DNA of 64,000 bases, taken from Bacteroidales bacterium (GTDB lineage: Bacteria > Bacteroidota > Bacteroidia > Bacteroidales > UBA932). Numbering within the stretch: position 1 is the stretch's first letter; every line of letters begins with the position of its first letter. The stretch is from NCBI GenBank assembly GCA_017447265.1, contig JAFSOA010000009.1:32922-96921 (forward strand), written 5' to 3'. The translations under genes and the position numbers were made by a program. This document shows, one piece after another, positions 11,720 through 59,720 of the stretch. The notes beneath the pieces are model-generated. The model had not been told where the DNA came from and searched no databases. It worked only from the letters and a program-made list of their open reading frames with translations.

Positions 11720-13801
11720 ATGGGAATTTCGAATCGAAAGAGTACCAAAAAGAAAAAAAATGCCGCGCAACCGCGTGAAGGCGCGCTCAAACGGGCAAAG
11801 CGCCTGGCCCGGGGCGGGCAGGAACCGGTCCGGACGACGGAACGGCGCTCCAGGAGCCTGGAGGAGTTTGAAGGGACTGTCTCGCTCTCGCGCGACGGCT
11901 TCGGTTTCGTGAAAGCGGAGGGCCTGAAAGACGACGTGTTCATTCCGATGCGGAAGCTGCATTTTGCGCTCAACGGGGACTTTGTGAAGATCGCCGTGTC
12001 GAAGCGGCGCATCCAGTCCGGCCTGAAAGGCCGCAGCCTGGAGGGGGAAGTAGTCAAGATCATCCATCGCAGCACGAAACCCCATATCGGCGTGCTGGTG
12101 GTCCGCGGACGTCAGGTCTGGGCCATCGTCGAGAGCAAAAACATGCCCTATGACATCCGCATTGACGTGCATGATCCGGAAGAACTGCCGGAAATCGGCG
12201 GCCAGAAAGCCGCGCACGGCATGAAGGTCGCCGTGCTGGTGACCGACTGGCCCAAGCGCAGCGCCGAGCCGCTGGGCCGCATCGTGGATGTGCTGGGCAT
12301 GCCCGGTGAAAACGATACGGAAATGCACGCCATCCTGGCGGAGTACCAGCTGCCTTACCGCTTTGAAGCTGAGGTGGAAAAGGCGGCCGACAAGATCTCC
12401 GACGCCATCACGTCGAAAGACCTGGCCGGGCGTCGCGATTTCCGCGGTGTGACCACGTTCACCATCGACCCGACCGACGCCAAGGATTTTGACGATGCGC
12501 TTTCGTACCGCCGGCTCGAGAACGGCAACGTCGAGGTGGGCATCCACATTGCCGATGTCACGCACTATGTGACGCCGGGCTCCGTGATCGACAAGGAAGC
12601 GTTTGCCCGCGGCACCTCGGTCTACCTGGTGGACCGGACCATCCCTATGCTGCCCGAAAACCTCTCGAACAAGCTCTGTTCGCTCCGTCCGCACGAGGAC
12701 AAGCTCACCTTCAGCGCCGTATTCGAGCTCAACGCCAAGGCCAAGGTCATCGGCCAGTGGTTCGGCCGCACCGTCATCAACTCGGACCAGCGCTTCGACT
12801 ACGAGCAGGCCCAGCAGATCATCGAGACGAAAGAGGGCCCGCTCGCCGAAGAGATCCAGGCGCTGCACGAACTGGCCTCCATCCTGCGCAGGCAGCGTTT
12901 CGAGAAGGGAGCCATCTCGTTCGAGCGGCCCGAGATGAAAGTCATCGTGGACGAGACCGGCAAGCCGCTGGATGTGATCCAGAAAGAGAGCAAGGAGAGC
13001 AACTGGCTCATCGAGGAGTTCATGCTGCTGGCCAACCGCTGCGTGGCGGAATATGTCACTAAAAAATGCAAGGCGAAGAATCCGACCTTCGTCTATCGTA
13101 TCCACGAGAATCCGGATCCGGAGAAGCTCGACAGCCTGCGCCAGTTTGCCAAAAACTTCGGACACAAGCTGGGCGACACGTCGAATCCGAAGGAGGCGGC
13201 GGGGGCGCTCAACGCGCTGATGAAGGAGTCCAAGGGCAAGCCGGAAGAGAATGCGCTGCAGCTGCTGGCGCTCCGCAGCATGGCGCGGGCGCGCTATTCT
13301 ACCGACAATGTGGGACATTATGGCCTGGCGTTCCAGTACTATACGCATTTCACGTCGCCCATCCGCCGTTATCCCGACATGATGGTGCACCGGCTGCTGG
13401 CCATGTACATGGACGGCGCGACTTCGCAGGACAAGCTCTACTTCGAGGACTGCTGCGAGCACTGTTCGGTGCGGGAGCAGATTGCGACCGATGCGGAGCG
13501 GGCTTCCATCAAGTACAAGATGGTGGAATTCATGCAGGACAAGATCGGCCGCGTGTTCGACGGGCATATCAGCGGTCTCACGGAGTGGGGCATCTATGTG
13601 GAGATCGAACCGACGAAGGTGGAGGGCATGGTTGCGTTGCGGGACATCCGTTTCGACTGGTTCCAGTTCGACGAGGAGAAGTACGAGACGCGGGCGAAGG
13701 CATCCGGCAAGGTTTATCGTCTGGGAGACCCGGTGAAGGTTCGTGTTCTCCGGGCCAATCTGGAACAAAAAATCATAGATTATGAATGGATTGAAGAATA
13801 A
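11720..13801 (+). CDS. rnr: Ribonuclease R (RNB-family 3'-5' exoribonuclease)
   Basis: This 693-residue exoribonuclease degrades structured RNA in the 3'-5' direction. A lysine-rich N-terminus leads into cold-shock-type domains (about 30-190), then the RNB catalytic domain with [15 protein letters not shown], which carries the magnesium-binding aspartates. A C-terminal S1 domain follows ([18 protein letters not shown]). I take the ATG at 11720 as the start; a GTG at 11699 is in frame but falls within the probable promoter region. The gene is divergent from gpmI. Its stop at 13801 is followed immediately by stacked repeats, not by a terminator. Length is close to other Bacteroidota homologues. 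Confidence 0.95.
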
Positions 13802-13811
13802 CGGTCGCTAT

Positions 13812-13882
13812 GCGGCTCTGGTTTCCGTCTCGCTCGCAGAAAAATGCTCGCTCACCGGAAACACACCCGCCGCTTCGCTCCC
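13812..13882 (+). repeat. Interspersed structured repeat, copy A
   Basis: The element begins GCGGCTCTGG and ends CCCGCCGCTTCGCTCC. GTTTCCG (13821-13827) pairs with CGGAAAC (13856-13862) around a 28-nt loop containing CGCTCGCAGAAAAATGCTCG. Related copies are at 58336 and, inverted, at 59629. Confidence 0.75.
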
Positions 13883-13888
13883 TTCCAT

Positions 13889-13945
13889 GTCCCGCTCGCA
13901 GAAAAATGCCCGCGGCTCCGCAAAACACCCGCCACTACGCTCGCT
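13889..13945 (+). repeat. Interspersed structured repeat, partial copy A2
   Basis: This truncated tandem copy lacks the left stem arm. It keeps GTCCCGCTCGCAGAAAAATG, then CGCGGCTCC, AAAACACCCGCC and a variant right flank. It matches the inverted copy at 59629 more closely than it matches copy A beside it. Confidence 0.65.
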
Positions 13946-13952
13946 TCCCGTC

Positions 13953-13973
13953 ATGCCGGGCTTGATCCGGCAT
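13953..13973. repeat. Short palindromic repeat overlapping a start codon
   Basis: ATGCCGG and CCGGCAT enclose the 7-nt spacer GCTTGAT. Sister copies at 19984 and 48193 read ATTCCGG/CCGGAAT, a paired T-A to G-C change. The first three bases are the likely ATG of the following gene. Confidence 0.7.
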
Positions 13974-14810
13974 CTCATAGCGATCTTCGTCCTATTCCTG
14001 TCGGTCCTCCCGCTGCGGGCGCAGGAGACGGAGTTGCTGTGGACCGGTGAATGGCATCACGAAGTTGTGGCCGAGGGGATTACGCTGCACTGTGCGGCTT
14101 TCAAGGGCACGTTGTTCGATGCGAATCAGTATCTCTGTGTACTGGAGGTGGCGCCGGGGGCGCGGTTCGACATCGTGCCGGCCGGGGAACGCACGCTCGA
14201 GAAAACGACGGCGCTGGCCGGACGTTACGGCGCCGTCGCGGCCATCAACGGCTCTTTCTTCAATATGAAGGCGCCCTACGGTTCGGTCAACTACCTGCGC
14301 GTCGACGGCGAGGAACTGGCGCCGAATGCCTATGACGGCTACGAGAATAAAACCGGAGGCCGCAGCACGCGGCAGACCGGTGCCGTTGCGACGTTCAAAG
14401 GGGGGCTGTACGTGCTCAAGGCGGATGCCATCGCCCGCTGGGAGCGGGACATCGAAGCGGAAGACGTCGTGACGACGGGTCCGATGCTGCTGATCGGCGG
14501 CGAACGCGAGCCGATTGTCGTCAACGATTTCAATACGCGGCGCAATCCGCGCACGGCGGTCGGCCGCCGGAGCGACGGGACGGTGCTGCTTGTGGTGGCC
14601 GACGGCCGCAACGCCGAGGCGGCCGGCCTGACGATGCCGGAATTGCAGCAGGTGATGCAGGCGCTGGGTTGTGCCGATGCTGTCAACCTCGACGGCGGCG
14701 GCTCCACCGCCATGGTCGTACGCGGCAAGGTCGTCAATCATCCCAGCGACAACCGTCGCTTCGACGCCGCTGGCGAACGTGCTGTCGCCAACGCGATCAT
14801 TGTCCGCTGA
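13953..14810 (+). CDS. Secreted phosphodiester glycosidase family (NAGPA/DUF2233) protein
   Basis: The 285-residue protein has a signal peptide (hydrophobic IAIFVLFLSVLPL, then RAQE) followed by a NAGPA-type domain. Typical strings are AINGSFFNMKAPYGSVNYL near residue 100, NPRTAVGRRSDGT, and VNLDGGGSTAMVV near the C-terminus. Relatives hydrolyse phosphodiester-linked N-acetylglucosamine or related exopolysaccharide linkages; the substrate here is unknown. The frame is open back to 13782 inside the RNase R end, but that stretch only translates interspersed repeats. I choose the ATG at 13953, which itself lies in a palindromic repeat that encodes the first residues MPGLIRH. It converges with recO eight bases downstream. 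Confidence 0.85.
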   Translation: MPGLIRHLIAIFVLFLSVLPLRAQETELLWTGEWHHEVVAEGITLHCAAFKGTLFDANQYLCVLEVAPGARFDIVPAGERTLEKTTALAGRYGAVAAINGSFFNMKAPYGSVNYLRVDGEELAPNAYDGYENKTGGRSTRQTGAVATFKGGLYVLKADAIARWERDIEAEDVVTTGPMLLIGGEREPIVVNDFNTRRNPRTAVGRRSDGTVLLVVADGRNAEAAGLTMPELQQVMQALGCADAVNLDGGGSTAMVVRGKVVNHPSDNRRFDAAGERAVANAIIVR

Positions 14811-19948: not shown

Positions 19949-19983
19949 ATCATTTCCCCGTCATTTCTGTAGAATAATCCGTC

Positions 19984-20004
19984 ATTCCGGTCTTGCCCCG
20001 GAAT
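19984..20004. repeat. Short palindromic repeat between divergent genes
   Basis: ATTCCGG and CCGGAAT enclose the 7-nt spacer TCTTGCC. It sits 19 nt ahead of the rsgA -7 element and shares arms with the copy at 48193. Confidence 0.7.
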
Positions 20005-20023
20005 CTATATCACAGATAATCCG

Positions 20024-48187: not shown

Positions 48188-48190
48188 TCG

Positions 48191-48571
48191 TTATTCCGGG
48201 CTTGACCCGGAATCCCCCGCCTGGATGACCACGAGCTTCTTCTCGATGGCTTCCGACTTGAAATAGAGAATACCGGTCCGCTCCGCCTGGCCGGTATTTT
48301 GACGTACATAGATGGTGACGGTCGCGCTTTCTTCGAACCATTCGGGCCAGGACGTGATCCATTCGGAACCCTGTTCGGCCTCTGTCTTGGAGATGACGTT
48401 GGTCGTCAGGAAGATGTCGGCCGAATCGGCCATGGCGTTGAAGCGCAGGGTGTCGGGCGCGATGCTGAGATCGGGCAGGATGTATTTCTCGCAGCCCGTG
48501 AACTGTGCGGCGGCGGCCAGCACGAGCAGGATGGAAACGAGGATGGAAGGTATTTTGCGCACGATCATCAT
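48191..48571 (-). CDS. Small lipoprotein with BACON-like domain
   Basis: The 126-residue protein has a lipobox (VLAAAAQFTGC, Cys near residue 27) followed by one BACON-like beta-sandwich (SIAPDTLRFNAMADSADIFL, SEWITSWPEW, YFKSEAIEKKLVVIQAGD). BACON domains in Bacteroidota commonly bind carbohydrate or mucin, or act as spacers. The ATG at 48571 is the first of two adjacent methionines. Its C-terminal end is formed by a palindromic repeat, so the native tail may once have been different. It is divergent from the BACON/TonB operon, with which it shares domain type. Confidence 0.78.
   Translation of the reverse strand: MMIVRKIPSILVSILLVLAAAAQFTGCEKYILPDLSIAPDTLRFNAMADSADIFLTTNVISKTEAEQGSEWITSWPEWFEESATVTIYVRQNTGQAERTGILYFKSEAIEKKLVVIQAGDSGSSPE
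48193..48213. repeat. Short palindromic repeat overlapping a gene end
   Basis: ATTCCGG and CCGGAAT enclose GCTTGAC. On the minus strand it encodes the last residues (SGSSPE) and stop codon of the small BACON lipoprotein. It begins 6 nt after the C69 gene stop on the plus strand. Confidence 0.7.
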
Positions 48572-58206: not shown

Positions 58207-58248
58207 TGTTGTCGTGCAACGTAAGTTGTTGATTTTCATCTAAATAAT

Positions 58249-58284
58249 AAAAACAACCTGCTTTTCGCCAAGTAGGTTGTTTTT
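58249..58284. terminator. Bidirectional terminator after the S46 gene
   Basis: AAAAACAACCT (58249-58259) pairs with AGGTTGTTTTT (58274-58284) over a 14-nt loop. A- and T-runs inside the arms serve both the S46 gene and the converging FMN-binding gene. Confidence 0.8.
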
Positions 58285-58335
58285 CGTAATAGGCTGAAAA
58301 TCACGGTGTCTCCTTGCACAGCCACGCTTCGTTTC

Positions 58336-58407
58336 GCGGCTCTGGTGTCCGTCTTGCTCCCGAAAAAAGGTCGCTTCGCCGGACACCACCCGCCGCTGCG
58401 CTCCGCT
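58336..58407 (+). repeat. Interspersed structured repeat, copy B
   Basis: GCGGCTC is followed by TGGTGTCCG (58343-58351), a 28-nt loop, CGGACACCA (58380-58388) and CCCGCCGCTGCGCTCCGCT. The 9-bp stem is perfect. The copy directly abuts the stop codon of the converging FMN-binding gene. Confidence 0.8.
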
Positions 58408-58833
58408 TTAGCGAGTCCAGTGAAGCTTTTTGCCGAAGCCGAGACGGTTGTCGGTGAACTTGAGACTGTCGAGTTTGATCTGCCAGACCTCACCGCCTTT
58501 AAAGACGGCGTAGGGAAAGCGCTTGAGATAGAGCAGGCGGCAGCGGTCGAAGAGGCCGCCGTCGCACCGGCGCACCGTGCCGGTGAACTGCAGGCCCTGG
58601 ATCTTTCCGACCTGTTCGGTCTCGAGGACCACTGAGCCCGCGACCTGCGGATTCTCCAGAAACAGCTGGGCGTGAAGGGTCTTTTCTTCGGAAGTAATAA
58701 TGAATCCTTCTTCCTGAGGATCATACACATAGAAGGCGTTCGCACACCACGGCATACCGCCCGCCTGCGGGACGCACGCCACCGTCAGCACATGGTGCTC
58801 CCCGATGAAATCCAAGATTCGTTGATCGATCAT
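58408..58833 (-). CDS. Pyridoxamine 5'-phosphate oxidase-like flavin-binding protein
   Basis: The 141-residue protein has the split-barrel fold sequence of the PNPOx-like family. It opens DQRILDFIGEHHVLTVACV, has MPWCANAFYVYDPQEEGFIITSEEKTLHA in the middle and a core VGKIQGLQFTGTVRR. It probably binds FMN or a related cofactor as a dimer; the reaction is unknown. The ATG at 58833 is set by a TACTTTTG element ending 6 nt upstream. Its stop codon is at the edge of interspersed repeat B, so the repeat may have trimmed the native C-terminus. It is divergent from comF. Confidence 0.85.
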   Translation of the reverse strand: MIDQRILDFIGEHHVLTVACVPQAGGMPWCANAFYVYDPQEEGFIITSEEKTLHAQLFLENPQVAGSVVLETEQVGKIQGLQFTGTVRRCDGGLFDRCRLLYLKRFPYAVFKGGEVWQIKLDSLKFTDNRLGFGKKLHWTR

Positions 58834-58839
58834 ACCTTG

Positions 58840-58847
58840 CAAAAGTA
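58840..58847 (-). promoter_or_regulatory. -7 element of the PNPOx-like gene, leaderless type
   Basis: The minus strand reads TACTTTTG, ending 6 nt before the ATG at 58833. Confidence 0.55.
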
Positions 58848-58891
58848 CGCATTTTTCCCTACCTTGCCATCAAATCATCGAGGCGAGAGAT

Positions 58892-59617
58892 ATGTGCGGA
58901 TATTTGATTCAGCAGATAGCATCGGGCATACAGGGGCTGCGGGAGTTGTTCTTTCCGCGGAAGTGTGTGGTGTGCGGGCGTTTTCTGGAGTTGGAGGAGC
59001 GGGATGTCTGTGACGCATGCATGGAAGGACTGCCGAAGACGTACCAGTGGGACATCGTGCAGAATGCGGCGTTCGAGCGGCTGGCGCGGCGCTTCGAGGT
59101 GCAGGATGCAGCTTCGCTGATGTTCTTCGGCACGGAGAGCGACTATCGGCACATCCTCTACGGCATCAAGTACGGCAACCGCCGGGAACTGGCCGTGCGT
59201 ATGGGTATGTTGTTGGGAGAAGAGCTGGCAGGCAGCCGGATGTTCAAAGGCTGTCAGGCCGTGGTGCCGGTGCCGCTGCATCCGCTGCGGCGCTGGAAGC
59301 GCGGCTACAACCAGGCGGAATTGATTGCGCGCGGCGTGGCGCAGGCGATGGGTCTGCCCGTTGAGGCGAAGCTGCTGCGCCGACGTCGTAACACGAAGAC
59401 CCAGACGAAGTTACAGGGCGCCGCCAAGACAAAGAACGTGCAGGGCGCTTTCGCGGTTGACGAACGCCATGCCGCCGCCCTGCAGCAGCAAAACATCCGC
59501 CATCTCCTGCTCATCGACGATACCCTGACGACAGGCTCGACCCTGGCCGCCTGCGCCGCTCCGCTCCTCCACGCCGGCTTTCAGGTCAGTTGTACGACCC
59601 TCGCTTTTGTCGGCTAA
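58892..59617 (+). CDS. comF: ComF family phosphoribosyltransferase-like protein
   Basis: The 241-residue protein has an N-terminal zinc finger with cysteines in RKCVVCGRF and DVCDAC. The phosphoribosyltransferase fold follows: GIKYGNRRELA near residue 90, VPVPLHPLRRWKRGYNQAELIARG near residue 125, and the PRPP loop LLLIDDTLTTGSTLAAC near residue 205. ComF proteins take part in DNA uptake for natural transformation in some bacteria, but homologues occur in organisms with no known competence. No competence operon surrounds it here. Repeat copy C begins 11 bp after its stop. Confidence 0.92.
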   Translation: MCGYLIQQIASGIQGLRELFFPRKCVVCGRFLELEERDVCDACMEGLPKTYQWDIVQNAAFERLARRFEVQDAASLMFFGTESDYRHILYGIKYGNRRELAVRMGMLLGEELAGSRMFKGCQAVVPVPLHPLRRWKRGYNQAELIARGVAQAMGLPVEAKLLRRRRNTKTQTKLQGAAKTKNVQGAFAVDERHAAALQQQNIRHLLLIDDTLTTGSTLAACAAPLLHAGFQVSCTTLAFVG

Positions 59618-59628
59618 TAACGATGATG

Positions 59629-59710
59629 CTAGCGGAGCGCAGCGGCGGGTGGTTTTAGGAGCCGCGAGCATTTTTCGCGAGCGGGACGAAAACCAGAGCC
59701 GCGGAGCGGA
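59629..59710 (-). repeat. Interspersed structured repeat, copy C
   Basis: In inverted orientation this copy has TGGTTTT (59650-59656 on the plus strand) pairing with AAAACCA (59689-59695). The arms extend to nine positions with one mismatch and leave a 28-nt loop, the same length as copies A and B. The flanks GCTAGCGGAGCG and CCGCGGAGCGG are shared with the other loci. Confidence 0.8.
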
Positions 59711-59720
59711 GCGATTCGTG

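Follow-up and report, generated by a model that had tools for sequence, protein, structure and literature searches.

A family of gene-invading palindromic elements, apparently undescribed, in one uncultured genus of rumen Bacteroidales

What kind of repeat keeps the two arms of a stem complementary while their sequences change, and sits in frame inside genes as well as beside them? This question is raised by a 64,000-nucleotide stretch of a Bacteroidales MAG (hereafter the window; G000:C8:32922-96921, in an assembly of 2.1 Mb that is 78.7% complete). On balance, we think it probable that the repeat belongs to a new family of mobile elements, short (about 82-94 bp here), palindromic and non-autonomous, in one uncultured genus of rumen Bacteroidales. 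As sequence comparison shows, its copies are scattered, occupy sites that are filled in some species and empty in others, and lie at gene ends and in frame within genes.

Copies and distribution of the element

A preliminary description had recognized four copies in the window, three full-length and one truncated in tandem with the first, and all four were recovered where it had placed them by a covariance model (R1) and by repeat comparison. R1 was built from a MAFFT alignment (A3) of 13 copies from the same genome, leaving out two heavily altered ones (L001 and L009). Copy A (13799..13887, minus strand) scored 90.1 bits (E 2.6e-24, model positions 1-89), copy B (58323..58410, minus strand) 86.1 bits (E 4e-23) and copy C (59628..59715, plus strand) 90.6 bits (E 1.8e-24); as all three are in the training set, these E-values are partly so by construction. 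Copy C is inverted relative to B, and the two are 81% complementary over 83 nt. Beside A, the truncated copy (13889..13948, minus strand) was recognized by R1 through its core, the central hairpin at 13889-13919 (minus strand; 25.3 bits, E 4.4e-5, model positions 31-61), and was extended to 13948 by an ungapped repeat comparison, being 80% identical to 13827-13886.

The segment between B and C (approximately 58424-59616) is inverted relative to its flanks in 13 genomes of the genus (G003, G006, G010, G014, G017, G022, G026, G028, G032, G033, G034, G036 and G063). We do not claim that B and C caused an inversion, since G023 has the same orientation without the elements. There the segment is not inverted, both copies are absent, and CGTC-like palindromes are found instead.

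The proposal that these copies belong to an interspersed family was borne out across the genome. A pattern search allowing up to two mismatches gave 36 places, against 14 for a reversed control, and many further copies emerged on reading. With R1 we obtained 48 matches at E up to 1. Two of these are duplicates, as the end of contig 8 recurs in contig 9, so that 46 distinct places remain, one of which holds a truncated copy. This assembly overlap of about 30 kb, in which window positions 33930-64000 recur at the start of contig 9, inflates copy counts; compared in two stretches, the contigs are identical over C9:1-12000 and 99.98% identical over 6,072 bases from C9:24000. Chance or an assembly artifact as the source of the family is ruled out by the 46 places together with the covariation controls described below.

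Across the genus, 19 of 40 genomes have R1 matches at E <= 0.01, the highest counts being 52, 48 (the genome studied here), 38 and 32. An order-wide R1 search of 295 genomes under strict filters matched none of the 294 others, in a design that scored 14 candidates per genome, recovered 14 of the 48 matches in the genome studied here and would miss sparse or diverged copies elsewhere. A pattern scan of named genomes returned at least 101 stretches, of which 80 were scored and 64 matched R1. Among the matches listed, 62 of the 64 come from records whose titles name Bacteroidales or Bacteroidia (rumen samples in several cases), and the two others are weak matches at one Chloroflexi locus (27.2 and 21.5 bits). 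An origin in phages or plasmids was considered and set aside, as blastn found no match in either; the single pattern match in IMG/VR reached just 15.4 bits with R1. At the gathering score, no Rfam 15 family matches the element (the window yields one tRNA only), and we found no named family with such a layout in the open-access literature, in agreement with the preliminary description. This gene-invading palindromic family is genuine and apparently undescribed.

Predicted fold and covariation

One strand of the element is predicted to form a long hairpin in which several helices alternate with short, mostly purine loops and which an A/T-rich apical loop closes. On this purine strand, the complement of the one printed in the preliminary description, the outer half of the consensus comprises GC, a GA/GA loop, GC, a GNA/GNA loop, GCNGC and a GGG/GA loop. 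The inner half consists of a TGGTTTTCG-type stem, a GAG/GA loop, CCGC, a GA/GA loop, GC and the apical loop, which is mostly 7-8 nt long. In copy A the T-rich apical loop lies at 13838..13845 (minus strand), as counted from the alignment (model loop positions 43-50 on 13887-13799). The stem first described is real, but the 28 nt that it encloses are not an unpaired loop, for they hold a further helix. The element also proved larger than the roughly 70 bp first given: two more helices lie outside that stem, and full-length matches in this genome measure 82-94 nt.

The purine strand folds better than the printed strand by both RNA and DNA MFE. For L010, a copy on contig 6 outside the four in the window, the RNA MFE was -41.5 (z -4.7) on the purine strand versus -30.3 (z -3.7) on the printed one, and the DNA MFE -17.6 (z -1.8) versus -15.0 (z -1.4). 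In all four RNA and DNA fold tests, this single copy folded exactly as the consensus.

The internal loops are mostly purine on this strand: GGG/GA occurs in 106 of 133 copies and the inner GA/GA in 116, while the outer GA/GA is present in 44 and the outer loop is missing in 26. Where the inner GA/GA has been lost, a Watson-Crick pair most often stands in its place, for example GG/CC in 5 of the 133 copies. GNA stands on both sides in 84 of the 133, and in these the middle base of the 5' GNA is T in 35, C in 20, A in 19 and G in 10. The two middle bases give no evidence of pairing (30 of 84 Watson-Crick, 24.4 expected). Tandem G·A and GNA steps can stack as a continuous helix in single-stranded DNA or RNA. 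If such stacking holds here, it is the purine strand that would fold, for in the opposite strand the bubbles would be open pyrimidines.

Comparison of copies indicates that the arms vary, both within the genome and between species at the same site, and that their complementarity is kept. In A3, whose 13 copies were aligned by MAFFT and not fitted to a structure, 87.5% of 312 cells are paired and 13 of 24 pairs show a double change, a number that 0 of 500 shuffles reached. Pairing was 91.3% among the 46 distinct copies of this genome (A4) and 93.0% among 94 distinct copies from other genomes (A5), with 22 of 24 pairs changed on both sides in each; these two alignments were fitted to the model structure, so that A3 serves better as a control. 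Pairing falls to 27-46% when one arm is slid by 1-3 columns. Helix 5 is the weak spot of A4, where about 20 of 46 copies, representing a variant with a larger purine loop, are unpaired at its two outer positions. The covarying stem of the preliminary description is thus upheld: the further copies that it called for were found, and their arms do not mutate independently.

We then asked which molecule the pairing serves. G·U accounts for 64 and A·C for 43 of 3,229 element cells, a slight excess of G·U (p = 0.053). At 2.0%, G·U is much rarer than in 29 tRNAs from the same loci (6.4%, 41 of 637 pairs; p = 2e-8); the tRNA count of 0 for A·C is no fair control, as ARAGORN draws only the pairs it accepts. 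Transversions are as frequent as transitions among the double changes (45 against 31 in one main bin, 102 against 101 in the other), so these did not arise mainly through G·U. The rarity of G·U and the equal share of transversions favor strict Watson-Crick pairing, as in DNA, as what is kept. The slight G·U excess, and a tendency of the purine strand to be the sense strand (20 copies to 9, p = 0.06), neither of them significant, would suit some role for RNA. In addition, 11 of 46 copies have their purine strand on the G-richer of the two DNA strands (p = 5e-4). We do not claim a replication-strand bias from this, as 12 of 15 window genes have a C-rich coding strand and copies of both orientations are intermingled along contigs.

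Genes, empty sites and change between species

Gene placement rests on a simple, crude codon-model caller, with which 44 copies of this genome were classified, two short matches being left out. Thirteen of the 44 lie inside open frames, with the purine strand sense in 8 and antisense in 5. All 13 frames stay open through the element, and each host could be named by Pfam; the hosts, unrelated to each other, include cobalamin adenosyltransferase, HydF, a SpoU methylase, DnaX, two ABC-F proteins, RsmF and CbiD. In the adenosyltransferase the domain match spans the insert, in the HydF and SpoU proteins it is split into two stretches around it, and the inserts of DnaX, RsmF and the ABC-F proteins fall in linkers. 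In-gene copies differ in length from orthologous sites by multiples of three in 26 of 29 comparisons (10 of 13 at site A, 16 of 16 at all other in-gene sites). The contrast with copies outside genes is not clean, as these also exceed chance (23 of 39), partly because the caller misses genes. Among intergenic copies, 8 of the 44 lie between convergent genes, 3 between divergent genes and 4 antisense between co-directed genes, and many copies are within 10 bp of a gene end.

Copy A illustrates an in-frame insertion that the preliminary description had overlooked. Together with its truncated neighbor it lies in an open frame for a phosphodiester glycosidase (NAGPA; 13782..14810, plus strand; PF09992, E 1.3e-38, residues 149-341), where it encodes residues 5-35 at the N-terminal end. 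At this site, a ribonuclease gene (RNB domain) ends just within the start of the NAGPA-type gene. Both flanking genes were recognized in 17 of 30 fetched loci, our own included; the remaining 13, which offered no second anchor, were left unjudged. The element is present, in frame, in 2 of the 17 (our own and G007) and absent from 15, one of which has another gene in between. Most of the element-free loci carry a short signal-peptide-region spacer in its place.

Occupied and empty sites were also compared elsewhere. Reading 22 candidate filled/empty alignments by eye, we took 14 rows, from 8 sites, as clean absences; a copy or a half-deleted copy stands in the others, two of which are half-deleted remnants. 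Absence in relatives can also reflect loss. The edges of the element are sharp across 132 copies, in which no direct repeat is enriched outside them, as a target-site duplication would be; the enriched repeats lie inside the arms. We rejected an inverted duplication of host flanks with each copy, since complementarity hardly passes the element edges (scores >= 4 in 4.5% of the flanks of these 132 copies, versus 1.7% of shuffled flanks).

It is common for an orthologous site to be occupied in several species, and 90 of 105 pairs agree in orientation, so that a large part of the family may be an old inheritance and not the product of active movement. Pairs at exactly the same site with 95-98% flank identity (n = 6) average 0.67 one-sided and no double changes, one pair at 90.6% has 3 one-sided and no double changes, and three pairs at 68-84% have 1-2 one-sided and 2-5 double changes. 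Setting one exceptional pair (L173/L209) aside, the seven pairs with at least 93% flank identity hold 4 one-sided and no double changes. In the 85-93% bin, 19 pairs hold 76 double and 40 one-sided changes, or 4.0 and 2.1 per pair, against 4.5 and 2.4 for random copies; pairs share sites and are not independent. Recent changes thus stand uncorrected, and older ones are matched.

Two further pairs are informative. In the exceptional pair (L173:6757-6850 and L209:1970-2060), the same site in two species, the flanks are 97.5% identical and the elements 75%, with outer arms shared and the inner part different. The pattern resembles the overwriting of one copy by a different variant. In a PrmC-like gene filled at the same site in two species, the arms are perfect in both (21 and 20 bp), and 7 of 20 positions differ, all of them matched. 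Stepwise selection, occasional conversion and templated correction are each a possible route to such matching.

Competing explanations and known systems

Under the reading as a mobile element, the object that is kept would be the single-stranded DNA hairpin of the purine strand, recognized by its shape together with a small number of invariant loop bases. The copying of this hairpin to new sites, without target duplication, would be the work of an enzyme encoded elsewhere, and the spread would be tolerable since the hairpin contains few stop codons and only in-frame insertions would survive within genes. At occupied sites, selection on the fold, hairpin-templated correction or conversion from other copies may then keep the arms matched. 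A bolder version, which we put forward tentatively, is a replicator defined by its shape and not by its sequence: the unit recognized and copied would be a single-stranded DNA hairpin in which tandem G·A and GNA loop steps are fixed, and hairpin-templated conversion would keep rewriting its arms. Were this so, unrelated arm sequences would succeed one another at one place, even within genes, while the fold persists.

Arm rewriting might also occur with no selection on the fold at all, if template switching at replication rewrote one arm from the other and the copies were otherwise inert. The perfectly matched arms in the PrmC-like gene, the few one-sided states in A4 and A5 and the conversion of the inner GA/GA to Watson-Crick pairs in some copies would all agree with this, yet such a process should erase the mismatched GA/GA, which 116 of 133 copies keep, and the one-sided changes of the seven recent pairs stand uncorrected. 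We therefore regard it as rather unlikely. We also consider it unlikely that the element functions as an RNA hairpin that is transcribed together with its gene and retained for a role in mRNA stability, termination or regulation. The scarcity of G·U relative to tRNAs, the double changes by transversion, the unrelated host genes and the copies that lie antisense within genes, antisense between co-directed genes or between divergent genes all speak against that role. They have to be set against the stable RNA fold of the purine strand in one copy, the tendency toward the sense strand, the copies between convergent genes or close to gene ends and the double changes that accumulate at orthologous sites. 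Tandem G·A steps, moreover, are common in RNA.

That the element is an atypical REP, moved in trans by the Y1 (RAYT-like) transposases of the genus, seems to us quite unlikely. The Y1 proteins of this genome resemble REP-associated tyrosine transposases, with PF01797 above its cut-off; their NF047646 scores of 52.7 and 42 bits fall short of the cut-off, 80. A main clade of RAYTs (E < 1e-40) is represented in 17 of the 19 genomes that bear the element and in 6 of the 21 that lack it (Fisher p = 1.2e-4, with a cut-off set after seeing the list and phylogeny ignored), and the lack of target duplication is as in single-strand transposition. Moreover, RAYTs of subclass 2.6 in Bacteroidetes are reported to be flanked by 'atypical secondary structures' (PMC6006769). 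However, the adjacency to a REP-associated transposase raised in the preliminary description was not observed: R1 at E <= 0.1 found the element at 0 of 30 scanned RAYT loci (of 68 matched places). The four RAYTs of this genome, the nearest about 1.9 kb from an element (contig 3), are flanked by different hairpins of about 100 nt. Furthermore, G010 (14 copies, 95% complete) and G017 (8 copies) carry the element without a main-clade RAYT match, and element and RAYT may merely share a clade. No mobilizer of the element was found. For RAYT subclasses 2.1 and 2.3, the same study reports no REP-like sequences (PMC6006769).

The hairpins beside the RAYTs, about 100 nt long and with GAAAATCA/GATATCAG-like motifs, constitute a second family, which flanks the four RAYTs of this genome and many others in the genus (L041-L044, L282-L311). 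Their inner stems also differ yet stay complementary. By eye, one such hairpin apparently adjoins copy B, at window positions 58207-58320 or thereabouts.

Dozens of related genomes at graded distances make continued movement of such elements, and selection versus DNA copying as the source of arm matching, testable by comparison, and sites filled across species are a natural time series. The fixed purine steps, in turn, provide a concrete bait for a protein that recognizes the element.

Among known systems, GTAG-type REPs resemble the element as interspersed hairpins with interrupted stems, and RAYT genes occur in many of the same genomes. The element differs in being longer, often inside genes and not adjoined to the RAYT loci scanned, and it does not conserve the GTAG/GTGG foot (the 5' GNA has T in 35 of 84). 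It also differs from CGTC-type REPs, single hairpins of about 28 bp with a stem of 8-9 bp, a loop of 4-5 nt and a conserved sequence that R1 does not match: the element follows a 24-pair model, its A/T-rich loop is mostly 7-8 nt, and it has no CGTC foot. CGTC-type REPs are described as palindromic repeats without a known transposase (PMC3733652). Putative repeats of this type, short GTCATnCCnGGnTTGACC-type palindromes, lie in the window at 13949-13976, 19980-20007 and 48189-48216 (all minus strand) and near 4 of the 44 element copies. By eye, they encode repeated peptides (e.g., VKPGMT) at the element's coding sites in several genes.

Typical MITEs carry the terminal repeats of an IS and often show target duplication; the latter was not seen in 132 copies of the element. 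In-frame palindromes in protein genes are known from Rickettsia and, as related elements, from Wolbachia, and their spread and upkeep are unexplained. ERIC and other bacterial MITEs are reported to be non-autonomous, palindromic and sometimes fused in frame to genes (PMC2229807). The Rickettsia RPEs are described as palindromes of about 100 bp that form a long hairpin, lack a transposase of their own and lie in frame in many unrelated conserved protein genes as well as between genes (PMC2229807; PMC10969869). Our element is likewise a palindrome found between genes and within unrelated protein genes, where 13 of 44 copies lie in frame. It occurs in another phylum, however, and is set apart by description rather than by sequence comparison: its arms vary freely yet stay matched, a covariation of which we found no mention in those descriptions of RPEs, and its tandem GA and GNA loops are conserved. 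It would thus represent a third, independent case of in-frame gene palindromes after Rickettsia and Wolbachia, here in gut Bacteroidales, and is perhaps best read as a separate family that resembles the Rickettsia RPEs in its behavior.
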